Below, one piece after another: positions 7,794 through 60,910 of a stretch of 64,000 nucleotides of DNA. The notes below the pieces were generated by a model. It ran no database searches. It had not been told where the DNA came from and saw nothing but the letters and a program-made list of their open reading frames with translations. The translations under genes and the position numbers were made by a program. How positions within the stretch are numbered: the stretch's first letter is position 1; the number at the start of each line of letters is the position of its first letter. The stretch comes from an uncultured Lachnospiraceae bacterium (lineage in GTDB: Bacteria; Bacillota; Clostridia; Lachnospirales; Lachnospiraceae): the NCBI GenBank assembly GCA_947570615.1, contig CANOVJ010000008.1, forward strand, positions 1 through 64,000, written 5' to 3'.

Positions 7794-7803
7794 GAGGATT
7801 GCG

Positions 7804-8859: not shown

Positions 8860-8861
8860 AA

Positions 8862-11298: not shown

Positions 11299-11338
11299 CT
11301 GTTTCCGTGTGGCTGAGCAGACAAAAGCAGAGGGACAG

Positions 11339-38001: not shown

Positions 38002-39168
38002 ATGAACGTTTTATTGCTTGGAAAAGCTGATTCTGTATTTACCAGAGATTTCTGCAGATATATTTTAGATTCAGACGAGATGAATACAGTTATTTTATCA
38101 CAGGAATTATCTGAGGAATATAAGCATGATTATGAAATGGAAGGTGTAAGGCAGATAAGGTGGCCGGATGGGTTCTTAAAAGGAGTTCTTAAACGGCCCA
38201 AAACACTGTTAAATTTTTGCAAAACCTGTAGAGAGTTAGAAAAAGAAATTGGATTCGGAAGAGAAATTGATATAATGCATGTCCATTATGTTGAACCTTT
38301 ACATCTGATTTACTTTTTACAGTTTTGGAAGAATGCGAAAAAACGAATATTGACATTTTGGGGCAGCGATATTCTAAGGGCTTCTCGCACAAAAAAAATC
38401 TTGCTCCCTTATTTTTTGAAGGATGCAAATCATATTATTTTTATGATTAAAAATCAGTATGAGTTTTTTCAATCGATATATGGTCATAAATATGATCACA
38501 AAGTCAGGATTATAGATTTTGGTAACAGTTTGATTGATCATCTGGATAAGAACTTGGAATGCCGTTCACGGGAGGAGTGTAAAAGATATTTTGACATGCC
38601 TGTGGACAAAATTATTGTGCATGTGGGGTATAACGCATTCAGGGCGCAACAGCATTTGGAGATGATGGAACGTTTGAAGGAGCTTCCGGAAGAGATTTTG
38701 ATCAAGACAGAGTTTGTTTTCAGCGTAGCATACAGGCAGGATAGCGATTTTGAACGGTATAAGTCCCAACTTATCGATATCATGGATAGAAAAAAGGTGA
38801 ATTACAGATTTTGCTGCGATTATTTACAGGACGAAAAACTTGCGATGTTTCGCCGGACATGTGATATATTTGTATATGGACAAAAAACTGACGCGCGATC
38901 GGAGAGTCCGTTAGAATATGTATATGCCGGGGCTGAGTTTATATGTCCCAGGTGGTTATCGGGCAATTATGAGATACTTGACAGAGCGGAAACAAAATAT
39001 TATATTTATGAGAATTTTGAGGAGCTCTGCAGAGTTTTTGAATCGTGCCTGCAAAGTATGGATGTGTCGTGTGACAGAATAAATAATTTCGGAAGACAAA
39101 AGATCCGTGAAGAAATATCCTGGGATTCTGTAGAGGAGAAATGGGGAGCGCTGTATGAAGGACAGTAA
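38002..39168 (+). CDS. GT-B glycosyltransferase, divergent
   Basis: 388 aa. MNVLLLGKADSVFTRDFCRY opens the first domain, DIMHVHYVEPLHLIY and ILTFWGSDILRAS follow (GSD is typical of GT4-like and Fuc4NAc-transferase-like enzymes), and the second domain contains VHVGYNAFRAQQHLEMME and ARSESPLEYVYAGA. The E-x7-E is not clear. AGGGGG precedes ATG 38002. The last 14 bases overlap the aminotransferase gene, connecting this GT with the enzyme set that follows. Confidence 0.72.
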   Translation: MNVLLLGKADSVFTRDFCRYILDSDEMNTVILSQELSEEYKHDYEMEGVRQIRWPDGFLKGVLKRPKTLLNFCKTCRELEKEIGFGREIDIMHVHYVEPLHLIYFLQFWKNAKKRILTFWGSDILRASRTKKILLPYFLKDANHIIFMIKNQYEFFQSIYGHKYDHKVRIIDFGNSLIDHLDKNLECRSREECKRYFDMPVDKIIVHVGYNAFRAQQHLEMMERLKELPEEILIKTEFVFSVAYRQDSDFERYKSQLIDIMDRKKVNYRFCCDYLQDEKLAMFRRTCDIFVYGQKTDARSESPLEYVYAGAEFICPRWLSGNYEILDRAETKYYIYENFEELCRVFESCLQSMDVSCDRINNFGRQKIREEISWDSVEEKWGALYEGQ

Positions 39169-40099
39169 AAAGAACAGTGACAGGTTGATATGGTTGAATG
39201 GAAAACTTGTACCGGTTAATGAAGCAAAAATTGGTATCTTGTCTCCGACGTCACAATTCGGGGCAAATGTTTTTGAAGGGATACGATGTTATTGGAATGA
39301 GAAAGAACGACAATTATATGCCTTTCGTTTAGATGATCATTATCTCAGACTGGTACGTTCGATGCGCTTATTTGGCCTGAAGAATCCGTACAGTATGGAA
39401 GAATTGAAAGAGTATCTGAAAGAAACGGTCAGAATGAACCACTATAAAGAGGACATTGCAGTACGGCAGACAGTATTTGTGGATGGAATGGGAAGCTGGT
39501 TTTCAACGGAGCCGTTAGGAATGTTTATCGCACCCATTGGGAAAGCAAGAAAAAAAGTACCATTATCTGCAGGTGAGAGAGTTTGTATAAGCTCATGGGA
39601 AAGGATCAGTGAGCGGGATTTGTCGCCGAGAGTGAAAGTGGGGGCGAACTATATTAATAGCAGGGCGGCGTATCTGGAGGCAGTGAATAAGGGGTTTGAC
39701 GCTGCACTGTTTTTAAATCGCATGGGTTATGTGGCAGAGGGGACGGGATCCTGTTTTTTTATGATAAAAGGAAATGAAGTTATTACTCCATCGCTGACAG
39801 ACTCTATATTGGAAAGCATCACCAGAGATACTGTGATCCAAATAGCAAAAGATGAGTTAAAACTGAAGGTAACAGAGCGCCATATTGACCGCAGTGAATT
39901 ATTTATGTGTGACGAAGCCTTTTTTTGCGGGTCTGCGGTTGAAATCAGTCCCATCTCCGCGATAGAGGGTTTCAATGTGGGCGAGGGAAAACCAGGGAAA
40001 TATACAATCGAGATTCATAAAAAATATATAGAGATTGTAGCAGGAGACAATATAAAATATTCGAACTGGATTGAGCCTGTTTATGATTGTGGGGTATAA
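39155..40099 (+). CDS. Class IV PLP aminotransferase (BCAT/DAAT fold)
   Basis: 314 aa. IWLNGKLVPVNEAKIGILS and GANVFEGIRCYWN at the start, RVKVGANYINS with the PLP lysine K161, RMGYVAEGTGSCFFMIKG and EAFFCGSAVEISPI are the conserved class IV blocks; the sequence is nearer IlvE than D-amino-acid transaminase. It transfers an amino group to or from a 2-oxo acid. A biosynthetic ilvE would not sit here, between a GT and an HpaI-type aldolase, so a special substrate made in this locus is likely. It overlaps both neighbours. Family sure; substrate inferred. Confidence 0.88.
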   Translation: MKDSKKNSDRLIWLNGKLVPVNEAKIGILSPTSQFGANVFEGIRCYWNEKERQLYAFRLDDHYLRLVRSMRLFGLKNPYSMEELKEYLKETVRMNHYKEDIAVRQTVFVDGMGSWFSTEPLGMFIAPIGKARKKVPLSAGERVCISSWERISERDLSPRVKVGANYINSRAAYLEAVNKGFDAALFLNRMGYVAEGTGSCFFMIKGNEVITPSLTDSILESITRDTVIQIAKDELKLKVTERHIDRSELFMCDEAFFCGSAVEISPISAIEGFNVGEGKPGKYTIEIHKKYIEIVAGDNIKYSNWIEPVYDCGV

Positions 40100-40103
40100 G
40101 AAA

Positions 40104-40940
40104 ATGGCGTTACAGATGATGTATATTACAAATAATCCTCAGATCGCGCGAATTGCCGAAAAGTATTCGGTGGACAGAGTCTGGATAGATCTGGAGCAGA
40201 TTGGGAAAAAAGAAAGACAGGGTGGCATGAACACCGTTCAATCTGACCATTCCATAGAAGATGTCAGAAGAATCAGGGACAGTATTGAGGGAGCTGCTAA
40301 AGTACAGGTCAGAGTGAATCCGATGCATGGGAACTCACAGTGGGAAATAGATAAGGTGATCTCTTATGGTGCAGATATTATTATGTTGCCCTTTTTTTCC
40401 ACTGTAAATGAAGTCGAACGATTTATTAAAATGGTAAATGGCAGGGCGAGGACTTGTCTGTTGCTGGAGACTATTGGAGCAGAGCAGAACCTGAATGATA
40501 TACTGAAAATCGGAGGTATTGATGAGATCCATATAGGCCTGAACGATTTACATCTGCAATACCATCAGAGATTTATGTTCGAACTTCTGGCAAACGGAAA
40601 AGTAGAAGAGCTTTGCGGCAAAATTGCGGCAGTGGGTATTCCTTATGGCTTTGGAGGTATTGCCAAGCTGGATGAAGGGATGTTGCCGGCCAGACATATT
40701 ATTGCGGAGCACTACCGGTTAGGGTCTTCCATGGCTATTTTGTCAAGGAGTTTTTATGATTCCTGGATAGCGAATGATTTGGAAGAGGTAGAGAGGACTT
40801 TTAAGTATGGTCTGGGAGAAATCCGTGAATATGAGCAGCGCCTACAGCATGAAAGCGCTGTTTTCTTTGAAAAAAATAAAGAGACGGTTATTGAGGAAGT
40901 GAAAGAAATACTGCAAATTATAAATAATAAGAGGAATTAG
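40104..40940 (+). CDS. HpcH/HpaI-type pyruvate aldolase family protein
   Basis: 278 aa. VDRVWIDLEQIGKKERQGG, VRVNPMHGNSQWEIDKVI, ADIIMLPFFSTV, LLLETIGAEQNL and GLNDLHLQY trace the HpcH/HpaI TIM barrel: the E in LLETIGA and D in NDLH are metal ligands in relatives. Such aldolases join or split pyruvate and an aldehyde through a 4-hydroxy-2-oxo acid. ATG 40104 starts the conserved region; ATG 40083 is in frame but inside the previous gene. It lies between the aminotransferase and the LysA-like decarboxylase, a suggestive order of three reactions. Confidence 0.83.
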   Translation: MALQMMYITNNPQIARIAEKYSVDRVWIDLEQIGKKERQGGMNTVQSDHSIEDVRRIRDSIEGAAKVQVRVNPMHGNSQWEIDKVISYGADIIMLPFFSTVNEVERFIKMVNGRARTCLLLETIGAEQNLNDILKIGGIDEIHIGLNDLHLQYHQRFMFELLANGKVEELCGKIAAVGIPYGFGGIAKLDEGMLPARHIIAEHYRLGSSMAILSRSFYDSWIANDLEEVERTFKYGLGEIREYEQRLQHESAVFFEKNKETVIEEVKEILQIINNKRN

Positions 40941-40941
40941 A

Positions 40942-42168
40942 ATGAAGTTAGATTTTGATGTATTAAACAGAATATCCGCAACTTATGGAGATTCCTTTTA
41001 TCTATTGGATACGGATGTCTTTGACAATAATTATTCGGAAATGATACAGGCATTCAGGGATATTTACTCCAATACTAGGGTAGCTTATTCCTATAAGACC
41101 AATTACATTCCCAGGCTCTGCAGGAGAGTAAAGGATATGGGAGGAGCTGCCGAGGTAGTCTCCGAAATGGAGCTATGGCTCGCAGAGAAAATTGGAGTCG
41201 AGGGAGAGGATATCTATTATAATGGCCCTTACAAGAAGGCAGATTATATAGAGAAGCTGCTTTTAAAAGGGGGGCATATCAATATCGATTCCGATTATGA
41301 AGCCGGTATTATTGAAGACATTGCACTTCGAAACCCGGATGTTTTGTTTCGAATTGGCATTCGATGTAATATTAATATTGGCCAGAAGCCTTTGTCCAGA
41401 TTCGGCGTTGACGTCGCGTCGGGAGAATTGAAAAGAATAGTAAAGTATATTAACCAGATTCCCAATGTAAAAGTAAATGGTTTGCATTGTCACATTCCTT
41501 TTCGAACTCTGGAATCCTTTTCCAGAAGGATGGAGTATTTATTTGAAACTTTAAACGATCTTCCTGAAAGCAGATGGGATTATATCAGCCTGGGGGGTGG
41601 GTACATGGGAAAGATTGATGAGCAGTTGGCAAGACAATTGTCATATAATCCCCCCACATTTTCGGAATATGCATCGGTTATAGCAGGAGGAATGAAGGAG
41701 TATTTTGCAGAAAGTGCCCGAAAGCCCAAATTAATTATTGAACCGGGAAGTGCTCTGGCGGCCAACGCAATGAAATATGCCACACGAGTTGTTGACATAA
41801 AGTGCATAGGAGGACATTATATTGCAAATATGGCAGGGAGCTCATTTCAAATAAACCCTGCAGTCAAAAATGTTAACAGACCGGTTGTCGTCTGTCATTC
41901 AAAGGACGAAAACGAATTAAGGGAATTCGATTGCCTGGATATGGCAGGCTATACATGCATAGAAGACGATTATTTATACAGGAACTATCAGGGAAAATTA
42001 GGGAAGGGGGACTTTGCAGTATTTGATAATGTGGGCTCTTACAGTGTGGTGATGAAACCTCCTTTTATTTTGCCGGATGTAGCTGTTTTAGAGCTGCAGG
42101 AGAATGGAAAAGCAGAGCTGATTAAACGTCCTCAGACGGCAGAGGATATATTTATGTATTATTATTGA
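40942..42168 (+). CDS. LysA-like fold III PLP decarboxylase
   Basis: 408 aa. YSYKTNYIPRLC holds the PLP lysine K52; GGAAEVVSEMELWLA, YNGPYKKADYIEK, HINIDSDYEAGII, LHCHIPFRTLESF, SLGGGYMG and EPGSALAANAM follow as in diaminopimelate/ornithine decarboxylases of the alanine-racemase fold. AVFDNVGSYSVVM near the end is the conserved C-terminal block. The housekeeping lysA normally sits elsewhere; here the enzyme directly follows an HpaI aldolase and an aminotransferase and probably decarboxylates (or binds) an unusual amino acid for the glycan. It begins 2 bases after the previous stop. Confidence 0.86.
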   Translation: MKLDFDVLNRISATYGDSFYLLDTDVFDNNYSEMIQAFRDIYSNTRVAYSYKTNYIPRLCRRVKDMGGAAEVVSEMELWLAEKIGVEGEDIYYNGPYKKADYIEKLLLKGGHINIDSDYEAGIIEDIALRNPDVLFRIGIRCNINIGQKPLSRFGVDVASGELKRIVKYINQIPNVKVNGLHCHIPFRTLESFSRRMEYLFETLNDLPESRWDYISLGGGYMGKIDEQLARQLSYNPPTFSEYASVIAGGMKEYFAESARKPKLIIEPGSALAANAMKYATRVVDIKCIGGHYIANMAGSSFQINPAVKNVNRPVVVCHSKDENELREFDCLDMAGYTCIEDDYLYRNYQGKLGKGDFAVFDNVGSYSVVMKPPFILPDVAVLELQENGKAELIKRPQTAEDIFMYYY

Positions 42169-42185: not shown

Positions 42186-43148
42186 ATGAGCGAGGATAAA
42201 AAGATATCAATTATTTTGAGCTTTTATAATGAGGAGAGATATCTGAAAAAGGCAATTGACAGTGTTCTGGCGCAGACATATCATAATTTTGAGCTGATAA
42301 TAATTAATGATGGATCAGATGATGGCAGTGAATCCATTGTGAACAGTTATTCAGATGAACGTATAATTTACGAAAAGAATTCTGAGAATAGAAGACTGGC
42401 ATACTCTCGAAATCGAGGACTCGAACTTGCAACAGGTGATTACATTGGTTTTTTTGATGCTGACGATATCATGATGCCGGATAAAATGGAAAAGCAGATC
42501 AGATATTTTAAAGAGCATAGAGATGTAACGCTTATAAGTGGCGGCTATAAATATATGGATGCGGACGGGAATGTGGAAGATGCGGTTATTGTGCCTGAAT
42601 ATAGAAATAACGAACAAATCAGGGCCTATATGTTATATAGAAACTGTATTGCCTGCGCGGGAGCTGCCCTGTTCCACAGGAGTATTATAGAGAAATACAA
42701 TATCCGGTTTGATGAGACAAATATGGCGTCTGAGGACTACAGGTTTTGGATTGATATGCTGCCGTATGCCAATGCAGTGAATTTGGAGGATTGCTTTTTT
42801 TGTTATAGAGTAAATCACGGTTCCAAGTCAGCAGCAATTGTGAATGAGGACAAATCTGCATATGACAGGGAGATAAGAAAACTCCTGGAGCATGCGTGGG
42901 CCCAAAGAGGTTTTCTGCTGGAAGAGAGTGATGTCTCCTTTATGTATGATTTTTTTTATAGGCAGAAAAGAATATGGAAGCTGCCAGATATATGCCGTGG
43001 AATCAGTATATACAAAAGAATAAAGGAGCAGATTCGTGTGTTGCAATTGCGGGAGGGAGAACTAATACTGCGGTATTATAAAAAACAGTGGGCGCGGGGA
43101 TATCAGGTATACTGGCTGATTAAAGGAATAGCGGGCGTGGCAGGGTGA
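42186..43148 (+). CDS. GT2 family glycosyltransferase
   Basis: 320 aa. ISIILSFYNEERYLKKAID, INDGSDDGSE, YSRNRGLELATGDYIG and FFDADDIMMP (DxD) define a GT-A enzyme. A TTG at 42165 overlaps the previous gene, but ATG 42186 stands right before the domain with GGGGTAGAG upstream. The C-terminal half is helical and basic. It ends by overlapping the following surface-carbohydrate gene. Probably transfers a sugar, or the special residue made by the preceding enzymes. Confidence 0.85.
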   Translation: MSEDKKISIILSFYNEERYLKKAIDSVLAQTYHNFELIIINDGSDDGSESIVNSYSDERIIYEKNSENRRLAYSRNRGLELATGDYIGFFDADDIMMPDKMEKQIRYFKEHRDVTLISGGYKYMDADGNVEDAVIVPEYRNNEQIRAYMLYRNCIACAGAALFHRSIIEKYNIRFDETNMASEDYRFWIDMLPYANAVNLEDCFFCYRVNHGSKSAAIVNEDKSAYDREIRKLLEHAWAQRGFLLEESDVSFMYDFFYRQKRIWKLPDICRGISIYKRIKEQIRVLQLREGELILRYYKKQWARGYQVYWLIKGIAGVAG

Positions 43149-43153
43149 AGTGC

Positions 43154-44524
43154 ATGATTGAGTTGGATTTTTTATTTGTTTATGAACATAAGGTGAGAGA
43201 ACTTGAAAATCTTTGCCTCATGAAATATGAATTGGACAGAAGAGGGTACAGGACCAAAATCGTTTATATTGATGATGCACAGAATGCGATGGCCGATACA
43301 CCGATTTATCATGCGAAAGTGCTTTGTACAATGGCATGCTATGACAACTATACTCTTTTCTGGCATAGTAAGGAATTTGTAAAGTTTGAGAAGGTAATTG
43401 ATCTTCAGTGGGAAAATATTGTTTATCCCAAGGATGAGGGCCGGGAGAATGCCTATAAGAATTACCACGGGATCGGCCGGGAGGTGGTTCATGTTTCGTG
43501 GGGACAGCAAAATGTTGATCGTCTGATCAGGGTGGCACATTTAGATAAAAAGAAGGTGAAGCTGACAGGACATGTTGGTATGGATTTTCTGCGGGCTCCC
43601 CTTGGCAGATATTATTTGCCCCGGAAAGAGATTTTATCGAAGTACGATATTCCGTCTGATAAAAAGGTTATTTTATTTGCCTCGCCATACTATGGAGACT
43701 GCCTGACAGAGGAGTATATTGAGGGGATGTGCAAAGCATTTGGAGAAGACTGGAAAGAATATTACAGTTTTATGTGTGCATCTCAGCGGGAAGTTCTTAT
43801 GTGGTTTCAGAAGATATGTATGGCACATTCTGATCTGGTAGTGATATATCGACCGCATCCGGGGCATCCGAGTGCTATGGCGCAGGAGCTGTCAGAAAAA
43901 TTTAGCAACTTTCGAATAATATCGGCAGAATCTGTTAAACAATGGATTTTAATCTGTGACAGGATATATACAGGGAACAGCTCGGTGGTGGTAGAGGCTT
44001 TTTTTGCAAAGAAGATGTGTAATCTTTTGTTCCCGTTTCCGACAACACCGGGATTTGAGTTGAAACTGATCTCTGAATCCTGTAAAATTAAAACATATGA
44101 AGAATTCAGCGAGTCAATATACGAAGAGCATGGAGATTTCCCGACGCCTGATAAAAGTATTGAGGATATTTATCTGATAGACTGGAAGACACCCAATTAC
44201 ATAAAGTTTGCAGACATGGCGGAAGATGTCTGGCGGGACAGATACTATCAGCTTTCCAGACGGCAATTGTGGCATTATAAGGAATATAATGCCGGACAAT
44301 ATTTGCAGAGAATCTTTACAGGGATGAAACCGCTGTATAATATATATCTTTCTCTGTTAAAGAATCAGAAGCTGAAATGGCCCGTTCTGGAGCATCAGAG
44401 AGAAGTCCGCAGAAAAACATATGAAAGAATAGCGGAAATTGAGAATGAGCATAAGCATGAGCTTACGAGTGAAATGGAAATTGCAGAAACTATTAACCGA
44501 ATAAAACAGGCCTTGGAAAATTAA
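43154..44524 (+). CDS. Surface carbohydrate biosynthesis protein (GT-B/glycerophosphotransferase-like)
   Basis: 456 aa. The start is either GTG 43145 (overlapping the previous stop) or ATG 43154, which has AGGGTGAAG in front and begins the conserved part. IELDFLFVYEHKVRELENL, HVSWGQQNVDRLI, VIYRPHPGHPSAMAQEL and YTGNSSVVVEAFF resemble proteins annotated as surface carbohydrate biosynthesis proteins, whose second half shares the HPGH and SSVVVEA motifs with CDP-glycerol glycerophosphotransferases and other GT-B folds. The next gene encodes a cytidylyltransferase, so a cytidylyl-activated donor is an attractive guess. Confidence 0.72.
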   Translation: MIELDFLFVYEHKVRELENLCLMKYELDRRGYRTKIVYIDDAQNAMADTPIYHAKVLCTMACYDNYTLFWHSKEFVKFEKVIDLQWENIVYPKDEGRENAYKNYHGIGREVVHVSWGQQNVDRLIRVAHLDKKKVKLTGHVGMDFLRAPLGRYYLPRKEILSKYDIPSDKKVILFASPYYGDCLTEEYIEGMCKAFGEDWKEYYSFMCASQREVLMWFQKICMAHSDLVVIYRPHPGHPSAMAQELSEKFSNFRIISAESVKQWILICDRIYTGNSSVVVEAFFAKKMCNLLFPFPTTPGFELKLISESCKIKTYEEFSESIYEEHGDFPTPDKSIEDIYLIDWKTPNYIKFADMAEDVWRDRYYQLSRRQLWHYKEYNAGQYLQRIFTGMKPLYNIYLSLLKNQKLKWPVLEHQREVRRKTYERIAEIENEHKHELTSEMEIAETINRIKQALEN

Positions 44525-44547: not shown

Positions 44548-45228
44548 ATGAATAGGACGATTACCGCAATTATTCCTGTAAAAGGGAACAGTACAAGATT
44601 ACCGAATAAGAATATTCTGCCTTTTGCGGATACAAATTTACTGCTTCATAAGATTCGACAGCTCAAACAGGTGGAGGAGATCACGGAAATCGTTGTCTCA
44701 TCAGACTCTGATGAAATGCTTGCAATGGGAAGTGCCGAGGGCGTAACAGCGATCAGAAGACCAAAAAAATATGCAGATGAATCAGTGCCTTTTGGAATGT
44801 TCCTGGAGTATATCAGCGACGAGATGCCCAATGAGCATATAATGTGGGCATGTGCTACTTCACCATTGGTAGAACCTTATCTGTATCGAAAAGCCATCAG
44901 ATTATATTTTGAAAAACTGCAAGAAGGATATGACTCGTTGATTACCTGTGATCCATATCAGACTTACCTTATGGATGAAAAGGGGCCCTTAAACTTCAGT
45001 ATGGGGCTTGCTCATAAGAATTCAGAGCAGTTGCCACGATTATATCATTTCACGAATGGGATCAATATTGCGCCTCGTGTTAAGCTTAAAGAGTGGCATT
45101 ATAATTATGGGCCGAAGGCGTATCGTCTGATTATCAACAAAAGGGAGGCGGTAGACATTGACGATATTTATGACTATGAAATTGCCAAAGCTCTGTATAA
45201 GATGGAAGACCCGAATCCAACCATTTAG
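44548..45228 (+). CDS. Acylneuraminate cytidylyltransferase family protein
   Basis: 226 aa after a strong AGGAGGAG site. TAIIPVKGNSTRLPNKNILPF is the nucleotide-binding signature of CMP-NeuAc/CMP-Kdo-type synthetases (R..KN), then VVSSDSDEML, ACATSPLVEP and a final VDIDDIYDYEIA with the conserved aspartates. It would activate a 2-keto sugar acid, or another small molecule, with CTP. The usual partners NeuB/NeuC or KdsA are absent; instead a KdsC-like phosphatase and an HMGL-type aldolase lie 5 kb downstream. Substrate therefore open. Confidence 0.87.
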   Translation: MNRTITAIIPVKGNSTRLPNKNILPFADTNLLLHKIRQLKQVEEITEIVVSSDSDEMLAMGSAEGVTAIRRPKKYADESVPFGMFLEYISDEMPNEHIMWACATSPLVEPYLYRKAIRLYFEKLQEGYDSLITCDPYQTYLMDEKGPLNFSMGLAHKNSEQLPRLYHFTNGINIAPRVKLKEWHYNYGPKAYRLIINKREAVDIDDIYDYEIAKALYKMEDPNPTI

Positions 45229-45254
45229 GTGACGGCAGAAGGCAGGGGGAATAC

Positions 45255-46755
45255 ATGAAGTTGTGAATCAGTGGTTGAAAGAGGGGCCTGCGAATCTTCA
45301 TTTTACTTGTTATGAATATTTCGATTCCGTAGAGTTTTCATCTCTCAGTGAAAGATGCCCTTATATTTCATACCCGGTTGGATCTACGTTTTTAATCTGG
45401 GGGATGGCTAGATTAATGGGAAGAAATCATATAGGCATATATTTTCTGAAACATGTGCAGGCACTGTTCTTCCTGACAGAAACATTATCGTTAGCTTTTT
45501 TCTCCTGCTTTATTCTGACACAAAGAGGATGTAAAGGAAAAACAGGAAGGATAATGGCCTCTGTATTAATAGCAGTTACCTGGATGTATTTGCCAGGAAA
45601 TGCCTGGTATTTATCCAATGTGCTATGGTCGGACCAGCTGGTCATTTTGTATGTCATGCTTTTTATCATGCTTGAGTATATGAATGATATCCTGAATAAG
45701 AGCAGGTTAAAGCTTTTTATAAAGGCGATCAGAACAGGAATTATTTATATGGGGGTCATGACAGATTATTTTTTCTGGATATTCATTTTTTGTGTGACCT
45801 TAATAAAGGCAGTAAGATTTATTCTGATTAGGATGGATTTCAGGACGGCCACAGCGGGGCTATGTGAGTATGTATGGCCTGTTTTTGCGGGGATAGCAAC
45901 CTTTTTGTGGCAGATTTCGTATACAGAGAACTGGTTTTCGGTTTTGAAGAAAAAGTTTATTTACAGGACGGGAGGAACAGCGGAAGGATCTTTGTTCGAT
46001 AATTTCTGCTCCGTGTTCACGGCCGGAAGTACTGTCAGGGGGGGGTGCTGCTGGCTTTCATTTTTCTCTCTGTGCTTCTTCCAGTCATAGAATTGTTAAA
46101 AGGGAGGAAAATAAAAAAAATATTTACGGAGCCGGGGACCGGAATTATTCTGGCAGCCGTGATTGCGCCCTGTGTTCAGATTTTACTTTTTAAAAATCAT
46201 TCTGTGAATCATGAATTTTCAATGGTAAAGCTGGGATGGATTGTCGCAGTTTTTCCGCTCATTTATGCGTTGTATATGCGGTGGATGCATAATGTAGATG
46301 TTAAGTGCCGATTTTTTCAGAATGGTGAAGGCGTCCCGGTTATGTATCTGAGAATGATTATGATGATAGTACTGTTGGCAATTATAATGGGGCAGCCTTT
46401 TTCGACGAAGGATTATCTGAAAAGAATGAATTGGGTAGCTGAGCATAAAATGGAGGAAGCAATTTATAATCTGACAGATTACGATGACTTATGCTTTTCT
46501 TTTGATACAAAGATATCTTATGATGATTCTATGTCCATGGCGGTATCTGAAAAATGTATTTATAAGGTAGAGGATATGGCGGAACTCAAAAAGAAAGTAT
46601 CCCGGACAGAAAGCAGGGTCGATAAAATTTTTTTTGTGATTGATTACACAATGGAAGGTGGAAATGCCGTGCAGGATGGCCTGAAAGCGGCAATGATGGA
46701 ACGGAATGAGCATGTATATGAGGATGATCAGTATTGCATCGTAGGATTACAATGA
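45255..46755 (+). pseudogene. GT-C-like membrane protein gene, N-terminally damaged and frameshifted at an 8-G tract
   Basis: A good ribosome site AGGGGGA stands before ATG 45255, but this reads only three codons to TGA. The homologous-looking frame opens at GTG 45263 with NQWLKEGPANLHF, lacking the first membrane segment and acidic loop expected of a GT-C enzyme, so a 5' deletion is likely. The frame runs through membrane segments to the G run at 46038-46045, where reading continues one frame back as VLLAFIFLSVLLPVIE up to 46755, including more membrane segments and a soluble outer tail. With 9 or 6 Gs the two parts would join to about 497 codons. The final domain matches tails of the other GT-C genes here. 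Confidence 0.72.
46038..46045 (+). repeat. Poly-G(8) tract, possible slippage switch
   Basis: Eight consecutive Gs sit exactly at the frame change of the damaged membrane-protein gene. In the present length the frame reads R-G-G-C-C-W and soon stops; one more G gives R-G-G-V-L-L-A-F and continues for 236 codons. It is the longest G run I saw in the window; runs of seven occur at 32386-32392 and 58300-58306. Confidence 0.6.
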
Positions 46756-46812
46756 AGCTTTGAGGTAGCGGGATATCTGCGAGTATACAGTTAGAAAGAA
46801 GGGGGATTACAA

Positions 46813-49173
46813 ATGAAATCTTTTAAAGGCCATACAAAAGAAATCATTGTCTTAACTGTAGAAATTATTTATATTTTGTCGCTGGTGATCAAATGCTTTG
46901 GAAGCAGTTCTGAGTATATACTGGACAAGAACAGTTTCAGTGGAACGCAAAAGTGGAAGGAGAGGATAGTATATTTTGAGAATGACTCTGTAGGAGTAGA
47001 GACAGAGAAGGCCGGACAGTGCGAAGTTATGACCAGTTCGATACCATTAAAAAGCGGAGCATATAAGCTGGAAGTAATATATGATTCTGTCAGTGATTAT
47101 GATAATGCCAATATAGATAACAGTGCGGGAAAGCTGTGCTTTAGGACAGAAAACGCATCGGTTTTACAGGCATCTGACATTGTTTTGAGCGACGGTATTC
47201 ACAGTATACAATCCAGACTCTGGATCAGGGAAATGTGGGGTGAAAAGGAGTGTGAACTGAAAATATCTGTTATTTACAATGGTTATGGAAGGCTGGCGAT
47301 TAAAAGTATTTCTATTGCTGAAAAAAAATTATACAGAGTGACCAGATGTATTTTTGCCATCCTGTTCTTTCTTGTTATAGATTTTCTGATCGTGATGTTT
47401 GGCAGAAGAAATGGACGGTTCTCAAATGAAAAGAAAAGATTTATTGTAGCAGGGATTTTGGGAATTACATTTTTCTCCAGTATGACTTATCTGGCGGAAT
47501 TCCTCAATCCGGGGCATGACCTGAATTTTCATTTGGGGAGAATAGTGTCGCTGGCCAATGGACTTAAGGAATTTCAAATACCCCATAGAATGCAATTTGA
47601 AATGTTGAATGGTTATGGTTATGCTACGCCTTTATACTACGGAGAGATTTTTTTATTATTGCCGGCGATTTTATATGATCTTTACGTGCCATTACAGACA
47701 GGCTATCAGATATGGGTCGTGATTGTTAATCTGGTTACGGCGTTACTTGGCTTCTGGTGTTTTGAAAAAATAGTGGGCGATTGGAGAAAAGGGCTGTTTG
47801 GAGCGGCGGTATATACACTTTCGGCTTATCGAATAATGGATTTAACAGTGCGTGCCGCGGTTGGAGAGTATATGGCAATGATTTTCTTTCCCTTATTATT
47901 TTATGGGGTATGGAAGTTGTATACAAAGTCTGAGGCGGATAATATTTCTTTTGGAGATTATTTGCCTCTAATTGTATCGGTGACAGGAATAATTAACTCT
48001 CATATATTGAGTTGCGAAATATTGACAGTTTTTATTATATTATTTATGCTGTTTGAATACAGGACTACTTTTAAGAAAAAAATGCTGCTTGCACTGGTAA
48101 AATGTGGAGTATGGATAATTTTTCTTAATTTGTGGTTTGTGATTCCCTTCGTTCAGTCGATGCAGATGAAGGTGGGGGTGACAGATATGGACAGGGTAAA
48201 TATGATTGAAAGGCATGGGGTCTATTTGTCCCAACTGTTTGGTATTTTTCATTCAACTACCGGCGGAAATGTTCCTTCAGGGAGAGTTGGAGAGATGCCG
48301 CTGGCGTTGGGAGTCTCTTTGTGCTCAGGCTTGGTACTGTTTTTGATTGTATATATCATGAGAGAAAAGTGGGATCTATGTTTTGGAAAAGAGATGCGAA
48401 GCGCGAAAATTTGTCTGGCGTTCGGAGTGTTGGCGGTCTTTTTGGCTTCTGATTTATGCAGATGGGATAATCTTATAGCTTTTAACAGGACAATCGCCAG
48501 GCTGGCGGGAATGATAGAATTTCCATGGCGATATCTGGCACCTGCTACGTTGTTGTTTACGGCCATGACGATATGGACTTTGCATATAATTGAAAGTAAC
48601 CTTTCTATAAGAGCATGTAATGTGATAATGGTTTCCATAATAGGTCTGGTAGTTCTTACAGAAGGCTTCTTTATGATGGACTGGACTGATGTACGGGAAG
48701 AAGAACAGGTCTTATCAGAGTCTGATGTAGATATGACAAGATTTTCCAGTTCAGATTATCTGCTGCTGAACACGGACAGAGAAGCATATAAAAACAGAGA
48801 TCTATTATACGGAGACGGAATAGAGAACGCCGAATTTCATTATGATAAAAACGGAAGATATTATTTGAACTGCGATAATCTGAATGAAGAACATTCCTAT
48901 GTGGATGTCCCTGTGCAGGCGTATGATCATTATCATGCCTACCAGAGCGATGGACAAGAACTTGTGGTGGGAAAGGGAGAAAACAATCGGATCAGGATTA
49001 TGGTGCCCGGGAATTATCAGGGGGCAATATGTCTGAGATATGAAGTCCCTGGATTATGGAGAGTATGCGAACTGATTTCGTTTACCACGGCCTGTGCGCT
49101 TTTCTGGAGAATGGCTCTGGAGTGGAGAAACAGGAACAGGAGAGAATATTGTGGACAACATCAAACTACTTGA
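46813..49173 (+). CDS. Large polytopic membrane protein, YfhO/6-PTPS-related GT-C type
   Basis: 786 aa. One N-terminal membrane segment, an outer beta-rich domain (~35-170), then about 12 segments. LNPGHDLNFHLGRI (D236) in the first loop and NGYGYATPLYYGE are typical of the membrane proteins annotated as 6-pyruvoyl-tetrahydropterin-synthase-related or YfhO-like; their plan is that of GT-C enzymes and YfhO of Bacillus acts in teichoic acid glucosylation. The soluble C-terminal tail ends with a last membrane segment near residue 755-775. GAAGGGGG precedes ATG 46813. It overlaps the aldolase gene by 23 bases. Confidence 0.72.
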   Translation: MKSFKGHTKEIIVLTVEIIYILSLVIKCFGSSSEYILDKNSFSGTQKWKERIVYFENDSVGVETEKAGQCEVMTSSIPLKSGAYKLEVIYDSVSDYDNANIDNSAGKLCFRTENASVLQASDIVLSDGIHSIQSRLWIREMWGEKECELKISVIYNGYGRLAIKSISIAEKKLYRVTRCIFAILFFLVIDFLIVMFGRRNGRFSNEKKRFIVAGILGITFFSSMTYLAEFLNPGHDLNFHLGRIVSLANGLKEFQIPHRMQFEMLNGYGYATPLYYGEIFLLLPAILYDLYVPLQTGYQIWVVIVNLVTALLGFWCFEKIVGDWRKGLFGAAVYTLSAYRIMDLTVRAAVGEYMAMIFFPLLFYGVWKLYTKSEADNISFGDYLPLIVSVTGIINSHILSCEILTVFIILFMLFEYRTTFKKKMLLALVKCGVWIIFLNLWFVIPFVQSMQMKVGVTDMDRVNMIERHGVYLSQLFGIFHSTTGGNVPSGRVGEMPLALGVSLCSGLVLFLIVYIMREKWDLCFGKEMRSAKICLAFGVLAVFLASDLCRWDNLIAFNRTIARLAGMIEFPWRYLAPATLLFTAMTIWTLHIIESNLSIRACNVIMVSIIGLVVLTEGFFMMDWTDVREEEQVLSESDVDMTRFSSSDYLLLNTDREAYKNRDLLYGDGIENAEFHYDKNGRYYLNCDNLNEEHSYVDVPVQAYDHYHAYQSDGQELVVGKGENNRIRIMVPGNYQGAICLRYEVPGLWRVCELISFTTACALFWRMALEWRNRNRREYCGQHQTT

Positions 49174-50722
49174 CTGTACATTAAGAGATGGCGGATACAT
49201 CAACGACTGGAATTTTGGTTTCCACACAATCAGGGATATTATCAGGAAGCTGGTAAGTTCAAAGGTCGATTATGTGGAGGTTGGGTTTCTGCGCGACTGT
49301 GAATATGATCGTGACAAGGCACTTTTTAATAACTGTGCGGAAATAGCCCCGGTTTTACCGGACAGACATGATGGCACATGCTTTACAGTGATGGCATTGC
49401 ATAATAAATATAATATTGATAAACTCGAGCCATATGACGGAAAAACTGTCGATGCCATACGGGTAACTTTTCATGATTACGATATCGAAGAAGGCCTTGT
49501 ATTTATCCGGAAAGCAAAGGATAAAGGCTATAAGGTGTTCTGTAACCCGATCAATATTATGGGGTATTCGGATGAGGATATCCTGCGGCTCCTTCAGAAA
49601 ATAAATCAGATACAGCCATATGCGTTCTCCATTGTGGATACCTTTGGCTCTATGATGAAGCCGGATCTGCAGAGAATTTATTCTCTGGTGGAGCATAATC
49701 TTGACAGGTCCATTGTAATCGGGCTGCATTTGCACGAGAATCTGGCCTTATCCTACTCTCTTGCCCAGGAGTTTATCATGATGAAGTCGGCAGAGAGAAA
49801 AAGTGTGATAGACGGCTCCATGCTGGGAATGGGACGAGTTCCCGGAAATCTTTGCATGGAGCTCATTATGGATTATATGAACAGGAGTCAGGGAGGAATC
49901 TATGACGTGAATCCTGTTCTTGATGGGATAGATGACCATATCATGCAGCTGAAAAAGCTGGAGCCCTGGGGATACAGCACAGCATATGCGTTATCGGCAA
50001 AATATAATCTGCACAGGAATTATGCCGAGTTTTTACTGGGGAAGGGACGCTTAAGAGCAAAACAGATCAATCAGATTCTTGCCAGTATAGAAGACAATAA
50101 AAAGACAGCTTATGATGAGCGCTATATAGAACGATTGTATGAAGGGTTTCAGAATCATGAGGTGGACGATAAAAGGCTGTTGGAGAAATTACAACAGCAA
50201 TGGAAGGAAGACGAGATTTTGATTTTGGCGCCGGGAGCAAGTATTTCCAGGCAGCGGGAACGGGTAGAACAGTTTATTTCCCGAAAAAAGCCAATTATTG
50301 TGTCGACGAATTTTATACCGGAGTTTTATGATCAGGATTATGTATTCTGCTCGAATGCCATGCGCTACAGTGCGATGGAGGACAGATGTAAAGAGAACAG
50401 TCTGCTGGTTACATCCAATCTGGTAGGAATTTGTGATACGGAGAATGTGCTGAATTATTCGGATTTAAGTCTTGATGACGCGGGAAAGTGTGATAATTGT
50501 GTGATTATGCTACTGCGGCTGATGGTCAGGCTGGGGAAAGAGCAGGTGTATGTTGCAGGATTCGACGGATATCAGCCAGAGGGTGTAAACTATATTTCCT
50601 CGTACATGGCAAATCAGCACACCAGGGGACTGGAGGAGAATATCCGAAATACGAAGTATGTCTCGGATATTCGAAAAAAAATCAGAGTAAATTTTCTGAC
50701 GGACTCATTGTATGACCGATAA
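49151..50722 (+). CDS. HMGL-type (DmpG-like) aldolase fused to an unknown Rossmann-like domain
   Basis: 523 aa from GTG 49151 after CAGGAGAGA. Residues ~1-300 form a DRE-TIM aldolase: LLDCTLRDGGYINDW holds the R-D metal/catalytic pair, SIVDTFGSM and GLHLHENLALS the metal-binding histidines, GSMLGMGRVPGN the glycine-rich end. Relatives include 4-hydroxy-2-oxovalerate aldolase and other pyruvate or acetyl-CoA aldolases. Residues ~370-520 form a second domain beginning ILILAPGASISRQRERV, with STNFIPEFYDQDYVFCSN and VAGFDGYQPEGVN, reminiscent of DUF115/MptE-like or sialyltransferase-like folds. The fusion, between a CMP-transferase and a KdsC-like phosphatase, suggests synthesis of a keto acid sugar. 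Confidence 0.82.
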   Translation: MDNIKLLDCTLRDGGYINDWNFGFHTIRDIIRKLVSSKVDYVEVGFLRDCEYDRDKALFNNCAEIAPVLPDRHDGTCFTVMALHNKYNIDKLEPYDGKTVDAIRVTFHDYDIEEGLVFIRKAKDKGYKVFCNPINIMGYSDEDILRLLQKINQIQPYAFSIVDTFGSMMKPDLQRIYSLVEHNLDRSIVIGLHLHENLALSYSLAQEFIMMKSAERKSVIDGSMLGMGRVPGNLCMELIMDYMNRSQGGIYDVNPVLDGIDDHIMQLKKLEPWGYSTAYALSAKYNLHRNYAEFLLGKGRLRAKQINQILASIEDNKKTAYDERYIERLYEGFQNHEVDDKRLLEKLQQQWKEDEILILAPGASISRQRERVEQFISRKKPIIVSTNFIPEFYDQDYVFCSNAMRYSAMEDRCKENSLLVTSNLVGICDTENVLNYSDLSLDDAGKCDNCVIMLLRLMVRLGKEQVYVAGFDGYQPEGVNYISSYMANQHTRGLEENIRNTKYVSDIRKKIRVNFLTDSLYDR

Positions 50723-50732
50723 GAGGTGGAAT

Positions 50733-51263
50733 ATGCAGGAGAGAAAATCGCTGAAAGAAATCAGATATCTGATCATTGATGTGGATGGAACGCTGACGGA
50801 CGCAGGTATCTATTATGATGAAAATGGGAACGAGCTCAAAAAATTTTCCACAAAGGACGCGGCGGGCTTTTTTGCGGCCCATAAAGTGGGCATAAAAATA
50901 ATAATTCTTACGGGAAGGGAATGCGCGGCCACGGAAAGACGAATGACAGAGATGCAGGTAGAGCATCTGGTGCAGGACTGCAGGGATAAGGTCAGCTATA
51001 TACGGAAATTTATGAGTGACCATGAGATCCGGAAAAATGAAATTGGATACCTGGGAGATGATCTGAACGATTTGCCGGGGATGGCGTTATGTGGATTTGT
51101 CGGGTGTCCGTCCGATTCCTGTGAGGAGGTAAAAGCGATGGCAGATTATGTCTCTGGTTTCAGAGGCGGATACGGGGCAGTGAGAGATATCATAGAGTTT
51201 CTGCTGAGGGAGCGTGGAGAATGGAAAAAAGCAATCTCAGAAGTTTACGGAGTGGGAGTATAG
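50733..51263 (+). CDS. KdsC-like HAD phosphatase
   Basis: 176 aa. YLIIDVDGTLTDAGIYYDENG carries D16, D18 and T20 of HAD motif I in the exact KdsC/NeuA-HAD wording; LTGRECAATERR is motif II, and YLGDDLNDLPGM motif IV. These cap-less tetrameric enzymes remove phosphate from Kdo-8-P, KDN-9-P or related acid-sugar phosphates. ATG 50733 has AGAGGTGG in front and fits the family length; ATG 50712 overlaps the aldolase gene. No Kdo is expected in a Gram-positive, so another ulosonic acid phosphate is the likely substrate, consistent with genes 44548 and 49151. Confidence 0.9.
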   Translation: MQERKSLKEIRYLIIDVDGTLTDAGIYYDENGNELKKFSTKDAAGFFAAHKVGIKIIILTGRECAATERRMTEMQVEHLVQDCRDKVSYIRKFMSDHEIRKNEIGYLGDDLNDLPGMALCGFVGCPSDSCEEVKAMADYVSGFRGGYGAVRDIIEFLLRERGEWKKAISEVYGVGV

Positions 51264-58478: not shown

Positions 58479-59819
58479 ATGTTTGAGAAAATGAATGAAG
58501 AGCAGGCAAAAGAGCAGATCCTTGACATGGTTAAGGAATATTATACAATTTATCGCAGCCCCCGGAAGCCTTTTCAGGAGGGACAGAATATTCCGTACGC
58601 CTCCAGGGTTTACGACGACGCGGAAATGCGGAATCTGGTTGACAGCGCGTTGGAGTTCTGGCTCACATCCGGAAGATATACCGATCAGTTTGAAAAGGAG
58701 TTTGCAACATACCTGAATGTCAGGTACTGTTCACTGGCCAATTCGGGCTCCTCCGCAAATCTGCTCGCTTTTATGGCGCTTACATCTCCGTTGCTTGGGG
58801 AGCGCAGAATTAACAGAGGAGATGAGGTTATCACGGTAGCGGCAGGATTTCCCACGACGGTTGCGCCGATTGTCCAATATGGAGCCGTTCCGGTATTTGT
58901 GGATGTGACCATACCACAATATAATATCGATACGGACATGCTGAAGGAAGCGCTGTCTGATAAAACGAAGGCTGTCATGATTGCACATACGTTGGGTAAT
59001 CCATTTGATTTAAAGGCGGTGAAGGAGTTTTGTGACAGGAACAATCTGTGGCTGATAGAAGATAACTGTGACGCCTTGGGGTCACAGTATGAGATGAACG
59101 GAAAGTGGTATCTTACGGGAACGGTGGGGGACATTGGAACCTCAAGCTTTTATCCGCCTCATCATATGACGATGGGGGAAGGCGGCGCTGTGTATACGAA
59201 TAATGCGTTGCTGCACAAAATTGTCAGATCCTTCCGTGACTGGGGAAGAGACTGTGTATGCCCTCCGGGGAGGGATAACTTCTGTGGACACCGTTTCGAC
59301 AGACAGTATGGACAGCTGCCGTTTGGGTATGATCATAAGTATGTGTATTCGCATTTCGGTTATAACCTGAAGGCGACGGATATGCAGGCAGCCATCGGCT
59401 GCGCCCAGCTCGAAAAGTTTCCGGAGTTTGTGGAGAAAAGACGGAGTAATTTCATGCGTCTTTATGAGGGACTTAAGCAGCTGGAGGAGTATTTTATCCT
59501 GCCGCAGCCGTGTGAAAATTCCAGGCCCTGCTGGTTTGGCTTTATGCTGACATGTAAGGAAGGAGTGGACAGAAACCACGTGGTTCCCTGTATCGAGGAA
59601 AAGGGAGTACAGACCAGAATGCTGTTCGCGGGAAATATAACCATGCATCCCTGCTTCGACGAGATGCGGAAGACCGGAGAGGGATACCGCGTTGTGGGAG
59701 AGCTGAAAAATACGGACAGGATTATGCGTGATACGTTCTGGATGGGAGTCTATCCGGGAATGACGGACGAAATGCTGGATTATATGGTAAATGCACTAAA
59801 ACAGGCGGTTCAGAAATGA
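58479..59819 (+). CDS. rfbH: CDP-6-deoxy-4-ketoglucose-3-dehydratase (RfbH/DdhC, E1)
   Basis: 446 aa. The DegT-like fold is complete (LTSGRYTDQFEKEFA, NSGSSANLLAF, HTLGNPFDLKAV, EDNCDALGSQY), but the PLP lysine is replaced: SSFYPPHHMTMGEGG has H228 at that place, the hallmark of the E1 dehydratase that uses pyridoxamine phosphate. C259-x-C261-x7-C269 together with C197 are the cysteines expected to bind its [2Fe-2S] centre. With a reductase it removes the C3 hydroxyl of CDP-4-keto-6-deoxyglucose, toward 3,6-dideoxyhexoses. Followed 17 bases later by rfbG; a reductase (E3-type) gene is not seen here. Confidence 0.95.
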   Translation: MFEKMNEEQAKEQILDMVKEYYTIYRSPRKPFQEGQNIPYASRVYDDAEMRNLVDSALEFWLTSGRYTDQFEKEFATYLNVRYCSLANSGSSANLLAFMALTSPLLGERRINRGDEVITVAAGFPTTVAPIVQYGAVPVFVDVTIPQYNIDTDMLKEALSDKTKAVMIAHTLGNPFDLKAVKEFCDRNNLWLIEDNCDALGSQYEMNGKWYLTGTVGDIGTSSFYPPHHMTMGEGGAVYTNNALLHKIVRSFRDWGRDCVCPPGRDNFCGHRFDRQYGQLPFGYDHKYVYSHFGYNLKATDMQAAIGCAQLEKFPEFVEKRRSNFMRLYEGLKQLEEYFILPQPCENSRPCWFGFMLTCKEGVDRNHVVPCIEEKGVQTRMLFAGNITMHPCFDEMRKTGEGYRVVGELKNTDRIMRDTFWMGVYPGMTDEMLDYMVNALKQAVQK

Positions 59820-59836
59820 GCTAAGAGGAAACAAAA

Positions 59837-60910
59837 ATGTTTGATTTATCCTTCTACAGAGGTAAAAGGGTTCTGGTGACAGGACACAGTGGTTTTAAAG
59901 GGGCTTGGATGTGCAGAGCGCTCCTCAAGGCCGGTGCGGACGTAACAGGCTATGCGCTGGAACCTCCGACAGAGCCGGGGCTGTTTCAACTGCTCTCTCT
60001 GGAATCGGAGATGGAGTCGGTGAGAGGGGATATCCGGGATCTGGATGGGCTTAAGAAGACCTTTGAAAACGCCCGGCCGGAAATCGTCATTCATATGGCG
60101 GCGCAGCCAATCGTCAGGGAGTCATATAAAAGGCCGGTATATACCTATGAAGTAAATGTGATGGGAACGGTCAATGTTCTGGAGTGCATCAGGCTGAGTG
60201 ATTCCGTCGTGTCCTTTGTGAACGTTACGACGGACAAGGTGTATAAAAATAAGGAATGGGAGTGGGGGTATCGTGAGAATGAGGAGTTAAACGGATATGA
60301 TCCGTATTCCAATTCCAAATCCTGTTCGGAGCTTGTAACGGAGAGCTATAAGAATTCTTTCCTGGAAGAACGTGAGATGGCGGTTTCCACAATGAGAGCA
60401 GGGAATGTGATCGGCGGCGGTGATTTTGCCAGCGACCGTATCGTCCCGGACTGCATCAGAGCGGCAAAGGAAAACAGAGATATCATAGTCCGCAATCCGT
60501 ATTCTGTCAGGCCCTATCAGCATGTTCTGGAACCGGTTATGGCGTATCTTATGGTAGCGGGCAGGCAGTATGAAGATAAGGCGCTTGCGGGAAGCTACAA
60601 TATAGGACCGGATGACAGTGATTGCTGGGCCACAGGAAAACTGGTTACCCTCTTCTGTTCCCGATGGAATGAAAGAATGAAGACAGGGATTTCATGGAAA
60701 AACGAAAGCGATGGCGGGCCACATGAGGCGAATCTGCTCAGACTGGATTGTTCAAGAATTAAGAAGACTTTTGGCTGGGAGCCCAGATGGAATGTGACCA
60801 CTGCAATGCAGAAAATTATCGACTGGTATGAGGTATATTTCAGGAATGGCGATATTTCCGAACGGATGGACCGGCAGATAGAGGAATATTTACAGACAGG
60901 TGATATATGA
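59837..60910 (+). CDS. rfbG: CDP-glucose 4,6-dehydratase
   Basis: 357 aa, an extended SDR. RVLVTGHSGFKGAWMC is the NAD-binding loop in the form specific to RfbG (GHTGFKG), IHMAAQPIVRESYKRP follows, and Y157-x3-K161 (DPYSNSKS) is the catalytic pair. GNVIGGGDFASDRIVPD is also typical. It converts CDP-glucose to CDP-4-keto-6-deoxyglucose, the RfbH substrate. rfbF, which makes CDP-glucose, is not within the window. ATGA overlap with the next gene. Confidence 0.95.
   Translation: MFDLSFYRGKRVLVTGHSGFKGAWMCRALLKAGADVTGYALEPPTEPGLFQLLSLESEMESVRGDIRDLDGLKKTFENARPEIVIHMAAQPIVRESYKRPVYTYEVNVMGTVNVLECIRLSDSVVSFVNVTTDKVYKNKEWEWGYRENEELNGYDPYSNSKSCSELVTESYKNSFLEEREMAVSTMRAGNVIGGGDFASDRIVPDCIRAAKENRDIIVRNPYSVRPYQHVLEPVMAYLMVAGRQYEDKALAGSYNIGPDDSDCWATGKLVTLFCSRWNERMKTGISWKNESDGGPHEANLLRLDCSRIKKTFGWEPRWNVTTAMQKIIDWYEVYFRNGDISERMDRQIEEYLQTGDI

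Follow-up and report, generated by a model that had tools for sequence, protein, structure and literature searches.

Here, we report on a 64,000-nucleotide stretch of DNA (hereafter the window) from an uncultured Lachnospiraceae bacterium (assembly GCA_947570615.1, contig CANOVJ010000008.1, positions 1 to 64,000), in which a long surface-polysaccharide cluster, with its main genes on the plus strand, contains genes for a NeuA/KdsB-family cytidylyltransferase, a DmpG-like two-domain DRE-TIM aldolase and a KdsC-like phosphatase (Table 1). It is likely that this cassette makes a cytidine monophosphate (CMP)-activated 3-deoxy-2-ulosonic acid without a phosphoenolpyruvate (PEP)-dependent synthase, and the role of the aldolase as the presumed skeleton-building enzyme is well supported by genomics. 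To our knowledge, CMP-activated keto acids, i.e. sialic acids, 3-deoxy-D-manno-octulosonic acid (Kdo) and their relatives, have been regarded as products of one superfamily, NeuB/KdsA. A first-pass annotation of the window had noted the three genes and proposed that the aldolase replaces NeuB/KdsA in making a new acid for a Gram-positive polymer. Profile matches agree with all three genes as it placed them. Its interpretation was supported in part: the trio belongs together and the aldolase stands in the place of NeuB/KdsA, the evidence being conserved pairing.

This evidence was obtained by comparing gene neighbourhoods. Of 150 genomes of the same family, 60, among them the window's own genome, contain aldolase relatives (E <=1e-20), and a scan of GTDB genomes gave 577 confirmed relatives; all locus counts refer to the best 80 of these 577, and the closest relatives among them are mostly Lachnospiraceae records. 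Of the 80 loci, 61 have a cytidylyltransferase gene directly upstream of the aldolase gene (<=200 bp) and 74 have one on the same strand no more than 8 kb away; 51 of the upstream genes overlap the aldolase gene or stand no more than 20 bp off. As only 73 of the 1172 open reading frames (ORFs) that surround the aldolase gene in the window and the related loci encode cytidylyltransferases, this pairing is beyond what would be expected by chance. A KdsC homologue lies directly downstream of the aldolase gene in 29/80 loci and within 5 kb in 36/80, a HAD_2 gene lies within 5 kb in 18/80, and, of the 74 cytidylyltransferase-bearing loci, 50 have a phosphatase of either type within this distance. 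In an initial set of 20 loci (19 full-length relatives and a paralogue on contig C43 of the same genome), 13 had a cytidylyltransferase, mostly beside the aldolase. At E 1e-8, no ORF of the 80 loci showed a fusion of the aldolase to a cytidylyltransferase, phosphatase, NeuB or thiamine diphosphate (ThDP)-dependent enzyme. NeuB was found in a single locus (L103), where, at 5307-11584, the NeuB match is accompanied by consecutive genes for a ThDP enzyme, a cytidylyltransferase and the aldolase.

In the closest relatives, the gene order is TIGR04396-type glycosyltransferase, cytidylyltransferase, aldolase and phosphatase, and the four genes are contiguous in L059, L063, L067 and L081. This order implies that the window carries the same cassette, its halves being separated by three ORFs. 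Unassigned genes between the halves are also present in L060, L062 and L064, and absent from L059, L063, L065, L067 and L081. A homologue of the window's glycosyltransferase, whose gene stands just 5' of the cytidylyltransferase gene, occurs in 9/80 loci, and in eight of these nine it is likewise directly 5' of the cytidylyltransferase gene.

The cytidylyltransferases fall into two sequence groups, a KdsB-like group (43 loci) and a NeuA/PseF-like group (30 loci, window included); three loci (L080, L099 and L106) hold both groups beside the aldolase. All 34 cytidylyltransferases scanned, two of which are the NeuB-set enzymes of the window's own genome, match KdsB or PseF models. We reconstructed a quick tree of the aldolase barrel with 96 rows (all 80 loci, the window, seven further loci of the ThDP setting described below and eight rows from a separate fetch of barrel-only relatives). 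Rows labelled both (3), none (5), TPP (12), short (6), long (2) and CDP-sugar (1) were excluded from the count of partner changes; the five "none" rows do carry a directly upstream cytidylyltransferase that was overlooked by clustering, and the cytidine diphosphate (CDP)-sugar row, L051, has a ThDP enzyme. On the remaining 67 rows, the partner type switches between KdsB and NeuA at least 13 times, which implies that the link between aldolase and cytidylyltransferase is not one single inherited linkage. That one aldolase family has paired repeatedly with two groups of cytidylyltransferases speaks for coupled reactions.

The association belongs to the two-domain form of the aldolase, because no cytidylyltransferase was present in any of 17 loci of barrel-only relatives (323-388 aa). 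These 17 were the countable ones among 20 candidates fetched (the aldolase ORF of L150 was lost, and L156 and L157 encode longer proteins); only six of the 17 entered the tree as barrel-only rows, chosen by motif pattern, and three of them lie on a very long branch. The same bacterial family often has barrel-only aldolases of ~325 aa (L139-L158) in other gene neighbourhoods, and in L156 the barrel is part of a 746 aa protein. The trio was also found outside Firmicutes: an alphaproteobacterial plasmid of Leisingera caerulea has contiguous genes for a 536-residue aldolase (24% identity), a protein annotated as 3-deoxy-manno-octulosonate cytidylyltransferase and a HAD hydrolase. In addition, aldolase and cytidylyltransferase occur together in draft records labelled Akkermansia, Gastranaerophilales, Spirochaetaceae and Bacteroidales. 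The occurrence is thus not confined to Gram-positive bacteria, for a polymer of which the acid had been proposed.

We then asked where NeuB and KdsA occur. The 108 kb contig (C8), one end of which forms the window, belongs to a 4.05 Mb genome assembled into 112 contigs. No window ORF of at least 90 aa matched NeuB queries at E 1e-5, and whole-genome searches with the NeuB (PF03102) and KdsA (TIGR01362) profiles gave no place inside the window. The absence of NeuB/KdsA stated by the first-pass annotation therefore holds for the window but not for the contig: the NeuB search found two clear genes in this genome, C8:86138-86848, which is 22 kb past the window end, and C10:27898-28620, as well as a weak match of 29.5 bits on C42. 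The C8 gene lies between a KdsC-SIS fusion gene and a NeuA gene of its own, and its product scores under the cut-offs of the known NeuB and PseI equivalogs. A NeuB gene close by, in a known sialic or legionaminic acid pathway, had been named as an observation that would refute the proposal; the gene does exist on the same contig, in a set that those cut-offs do not assign to a known type. In this region (L005:1601-5588, about 83.6-87.6 kb of C8), genes resembling MptE, a fused KdsC-phosphatase/phosphoheptose isomerase, NeuB and NeuA were observed. The C10 gene is part of a pseudaminic acid set, in which PseI and PseF (268.5 bits, cut-off 205.7) are over and PseG is just under the cut-offs; a LysA-like decarboxylase gene sits between PseI and PseF (L006:8415-12861). 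No KdsA over the cut-off was found in this draft genome, the best score being 112 bits against 314 at the C42 place, which, with its weak NeuB and KdsA matches, is read as a probable DAHP (3-deoxy-D-arabino-heptulosonate 7-phosphate) synthase.

INDEPENDENCE of NeuB and KdsA was assessed in all 80 genomes behind the loci, which were searched with the same two profiles in two batches of 40. Clear NeuB genes (at least 148 bits) were present in 19/40 and 24/40 genomes, i.e. 43/80. In the remaining 37, the best NeuB match was about 44 bits or less, or there was none, and these weak matches are mostly at places scoring about 97-137 bits to the KdsA profile, which we likewise read as putative DAHP synthases. 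KdsA over the cut-off was found in eight of the 80 genomes (six and two in the two batches). Neither NeuB nor KdsA was found by these searches in 34 of the 80 genomes (18/40 and 16/40). Nevertheless, a cytidylyltransferase is near the aldolase in 33 of these 34 (the exception is L108) and a phosphatase is within 5 kb of it in 27. Eight of the 34 are named isolates, namely Mediterraneibacter glycyrrhizinilyticus (L073), Bacillus sp. EAC (L092), Paenibacillus sp. HB172176 (L102), Robinsoniella peoriensis (L110), Niameybacter massiliensis (L115), Proteocatella sphenisci (L116), Paenibacillus sp. 32352 (L119) and Flavonifractor sp. An82 (L121). The predicted tie of the aldolase to a cytidylyltransferase and a phosphatase is therefore seen in most of the 80 loci, on the Leisingera plasmid, in genomes without NeuB/KdsA and with two cytidylyltransferase groups.

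The aldolase itself is a DRE-TIM metallolyase by its TLRDG motif, metal-binding Asp and HxH pair, the fold being predicted from sequence homology only. HMGL-like is its sole Pfam match, and it is not a member of the PEP-dependent synthase families (PF03102, TIGR01362). It misses the cut-offs of the 4-hydroxy-2-oxovalerate aldolase models (57.6 bits against 229 for PRK08195 and 46.8 against 286 for TIGR03217). Its relatives in the PDB by profile alignment are 3dxi and DmpG (1nvm). The barrel carries the metal and catalytic residues R12, D13, H193, H195 and N197, and these, as well as E43, R104 and D163, are invariant in 62/62 aligned rows (the window and 61 of the 80 loci); the same residues are kept in 70/70 CMP-paired and 12/12 ThDP-paired rows. 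In DmpG, the His after RDG(S/M) is catalytic. The window aldolase has Tyr at this position and is not of the DmpG/BphI type in this respect. With Tyr at this site in most of the aligned members, DmpG chemistry should not be assumed for it, and a metal-bound pyruvate enolate with a base other than that of DmpG is likely. The conserved C-terminal domain gave faint Pfam matches to MptE-like in 4/44 members (best E 0.0021) and to CST-I in 2/44 (best E 0.0018), and had no PDB relative under E 0.6. Comparison of its profile with two proteins of the MptE-like type yielded no significant score.

The two partner enzymes fit their families. The R, K and D residues of CMP-ulosonate cytidylyltransferases have a catalytic role. 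The window's enzyme belongs to these by its PF02348 match and by keeping R17, K21 and D209; in an alignment of 34 members, K21 is invariant and R17 and D209 are nearly so. Its nearest models are PseF and KdsB, with scores far under both cut-offs (for PseF, TIGR03584, 70.6 bits against an equivalog cut-off of 205.7). The phosphatase belongs to the KdsC-type subfamily TIGR01670 and also matches PRK09484 and the KDN (2-keto-3-deoxynononic acid)-9-phosphate phosphatase models under their cut-offs. Shine-Dalgarno-like sites precede both the ATG of the cytidylyltransferase gene (AGGAGG) and the GTG start of the aldolase gene (AGGAGAG).

3-Deoxy-2-ulosonic acids are the substrates handled by KdsC phosphatases and NeuA/KdsB enzymes. 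In the proposed pathway, the metal-dependent aldolase would form a pyruvate enolate and add it to an aldehyde, giving a 4-hydroxy-2-keto acid; with a sugar or sugar phosphate as the aldehyde, this would be a 3-deoxy-2-ulosonate or its phosphate. A KdsC- or HAD_2-type phosphatase would remove the phosphate, and the cytidylyltransferase, judging from its family, would couple the acid to CMP and thereby pull the reversible aldol step forward. The aldehyde would most likely be a sugar phosphate of central metabolism. No obvious aldehyde-making family was found among the gene families present in at least nine loci, the smaller families being mostly without annotation, which makes a housekeeping metabolite the simplest guess. 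The nameable families in at least nine loci, besides the aldolase, are transferases, cytidylyltransferases, phosphatases, ABC and flippase proteins, DegT, epimerase-type enzymes and an acyltransferase; one further recurrent family of ~700 aa has only a weak HAD match, and another is an opposite-strand ORF overlapping the aldolase gene. The acid had been proposed to be new but need not be: it could be a known one, such as Kdo, KDN or a 3-deoxyhexulosonate, made via a new route.

Finally, a TIGR04396-, polysialyltransferase- or MptE-type glycosyltransferase would transfer the acid to a surface polymer. Polysialyltransferase (PolyST)-like queries match 21/80 loci and MptE-type queries 15/80. The window's own TIGR04396-like protein, which narrowly misses the cut-off of that surface carbohydrate glycosyltransferase family (Table 1), is a possible transferase of the CMP-activated acid. 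According to PMC6388019, the general protein glycosylation cluster of Tannerella has putative pseudaminic (Pse) and legionaminic (Leg) acid transferases, whose loss removes the acid. TIGR04396/BFO_1060 may be the family of the Tannerella nonulosonic acid transferases, a link that was looked for in PMC6388019 and PMC6120980 and not confirmed. In the open-access literature searched, none of the matches listed describes the pairing of a DRE-TIM aldolase and a CMP synthetase, subscription papers and preprints being outside its scope.

The same aldolase family occurs in a second setting. All six of the 80 loci that lack a cytidylyltransferase have a ThDP enzyme, as do the other seven of the 20 initial loci (L042, L047, L049, L051, L055, L057 and L058). 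Together with L157, these seven, including the paralogue of the window's own genome (L042, C43, 2869-7150), pair the aldolase with an acetolactate synthase-like ThDP enzyme. A HAD_2 gene is present in L042, L049, L055, L058 and L157, and RfbG- or RfbH-like genes in L049, L051, L055, L057, L058 and L157. On the tree, most ThDP-paired rows lie in one clade, shared with two KdsB-paired rows (L110 and L119). A Desulfobaculum plasmid carries rfbH, transketolase halves and a barrel-only aldolase. These observations suggest that, in the ThDP setting, an aldol-made keto acid may be decarboxylated and added to a 4-keto sugar, yielding a longer relative of yersiniose. As a broader and more tentative proposal, which we hold to be somewhat less probable than its opposite, the two-domain aldolase might define a second, PEP-independent CMP-ulosonic route leading to a short sialic-like acid of five to seven carbons that would be new as a CMP-sugar, and the family might also feed a ThDP carboligase that extends a CDP-3,6-dideoxy-4-ketohexose with an aldol-derived side chain, the result being yersiniose-like sugars whose branches are longer.

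Several observations weigh against a synthase-free route to a CMP-activated acid. Two NeuB genes are present in the window's genome and NeuB is present in 43/80 genomes of relatives; moreover, most genomes are draft metagenome-assembled genomes whose completeness is not given, and an absent NeuB may reflect an assembly gap. When the partner labels on the tree were shuffled, a mean of 21 and a minimum of 16 changes were obtained, against the 13 observed; partner type is in part inherited, yet often switched. No KdsC or HAD_2 gene was matched within 5 kb in 24 of the 74 cytidylyltransferase-bearing loci, and in the window itself three ORFs split the cytidylyltransferase gene from the aldolase gene. 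The site of the DmpG catalytic His is Tyr in 54/62 rows, His in seven and Phe in one. The occurrence of the family beside a ThDP enzyme without a cytidylyltransferase (6/80; 7/20 in the initial set) points to another use of the product. Among nine plasmid records, three were inspected and the trio was in one, and not in those of Desulfobaculum or Legionella adelaidensis. Lastly, we found no biochemistry for the cassette.

Three other explanations have to be considered. The window's cytidylyltransferase might activate the acid made by the C8 NeuB or by the pseudaminic set, with the aldolase making a separate decoration of the same polymer. The location of NeuB sets on the same contig and on C10 and the frequency of clear NeuB among relatives are consistent with this; however, each NeuB set of the genome brings its own cytidylyltransferase, and the aldolase-cytidylyltransferase pair is kept in 33 genomes without found NeuB/KdsA and with two cytidylyltransferase groups, which leaves this explanation unlikely. 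We consider it quite improbable that the product is a CMP-linked non-ulosonic compound, such as a phosphonate or another hydroxy acid. Some cytidylyltransferases activate phosphonates, and a PEP mutase is encoded on C44 of the same genome; on the other hand, PEP mutase over the cut-off is absent in seven of the eight cassette-bearing isolates, so that a phosphonate reading is not general, and both the KdsB/PseF matches of all partners scanned and the KdsC-type phosphatase argue against such a compound.

It might also be that the aldolase supplies a 2-keto acid to a thiamine-dependent carboligase and stands next to the cytidylyltransferase through operon crowding. This would agree with the eight loci pairing the aldolase with a ThDP enzyme, mostly beside RfbG-/RfbH-like genes, with the Desulfobaculum plasmid and with the RfbH/RfbG-like genes of the window. 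However, the tree puts the window's aldolase among cytidylyltransferase-paired rows and most ThDP-paired rows in one other clade, no window ORF of at least 90 aa matches ThDP queries at E 1e-5, and no ThDP match was found in the loci of close relatives (L059-L065, L067 and L081). Operon crowding is hence very improbable for the window, and the synthase-free route to a CMP-activated ulosonic acid is the reading that we prefer.

Table 1. Features of the cassette region of the window
Feature	Position	Strand	Evidence
Predicted TIGR04396/BFO_1060-like glycosyltransferase	43145..44524	+	TIGR04396 117.7 bits (cut-off 125); NF046086 97.8 bits (cut-off 200)
NeuA/KdsB-family cytidylyltransferase, NeuA/PseF-like	44548..45228	+	PF02348 CTP_transf_3 52.6 bits (cut-off 22.6)
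Three membrane-protein-like ORFs between the cassette halves	45263-46090, 46045-46755, 46813-49173	+	Sequence reading
DmpG-like two-domain DRE-TIM aldolase	49151..50722	+	PF00682 HMGL-like 63.6 bits (cut-off 29)
C-terminal domain of the aldolase, 172 aa	50204..50722	+	Conserved; faint MptE/CST-I resemblance
KdsC/KDN-9-phosphate-phosphatase-like HAD phosphatase	50733..51263	+	TIGR01670 131.4 bits (cut-off 106.95)

The three membrane-protein-like ORFs had no Pfam match and are not regarded as part of the pathway; the two that overlap (45263-46755) may be a single split gene. Upstream of the cassette, genes for a branched-chain-type aminotransferase, an HpcH/HpaI-like aldolase and a LysA/FslC-like pyridoxal phosphate-dependent decarboxylase are consecutive (39155-42168) and could convert a keto acid of aldol origin into a decoration that is an amino alcohol or an amine. 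Downstream, RfbH-like and CDP-glucose-dehydratase-like (RfbG-like) genes of a 3,6-dideoxyhexose route were observed (58479-60910); Pfam places them in the DegT and epimerase/dehydratase families, and the finer names come from reading the sequence.

If the proposed route is true, there would be a second natural route to sialic-like sugars in many gut and soil bacteria, and genome annotation would overlook such sugars in gut Lachnospiraceae and other bacteria. It would also give a function to a large aldolase family, a new enzyme for sugar-acid making, and a prediction that can be tested in strains with cytidylyltransferases and without a synthase.

The cassette resembles the canonical CMP-ulosonic routes (NeuB/NeuA, KdsA-KdsC-KdsB and KDN-9-phosphate synthase/phosphatase/CMP-KDN synthetase) in its cytidylyltransferase family, its KdsC-type phosphatase and, in many clusters, its sialyltransferase-like transferases. 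However, the canonical routes use a PEP-dependent NeuB/KdsA synthase, whereas the presumed C-C bond former of the cassette is a metal-dependent, pyruvate-aldolase-like DRE-TIM protein. With DmpG/BphI (1nvm, 8ih7 and 4lrs) the cassette aldolase shares the barrel, the TLRDG motif, the metal-ligand His pair and a conserved Asn; it differs from them in scoring under the family cut-offs, in having mostly Tyr for the catalytic His, in its own fused C-terminal domain and in its polysaccharide context. The closest solved relative by sequence, the "putative aldolase" 3dxi, has the same LDCTLRDGGY start but consists of one 320 aa barrel and lacks the C-terminal domain. The sialic acid aldolase NanA, when run in the synthetic direction, makes a 3-deoxy-2-ulosonic acid from pyruvate and a sugar aldehyde. 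NanA comes from a different family, acts as a Schiff-base lyase and is mainly catabolic, whereas the aldolase described here belongs to a biosynthetic cassette.

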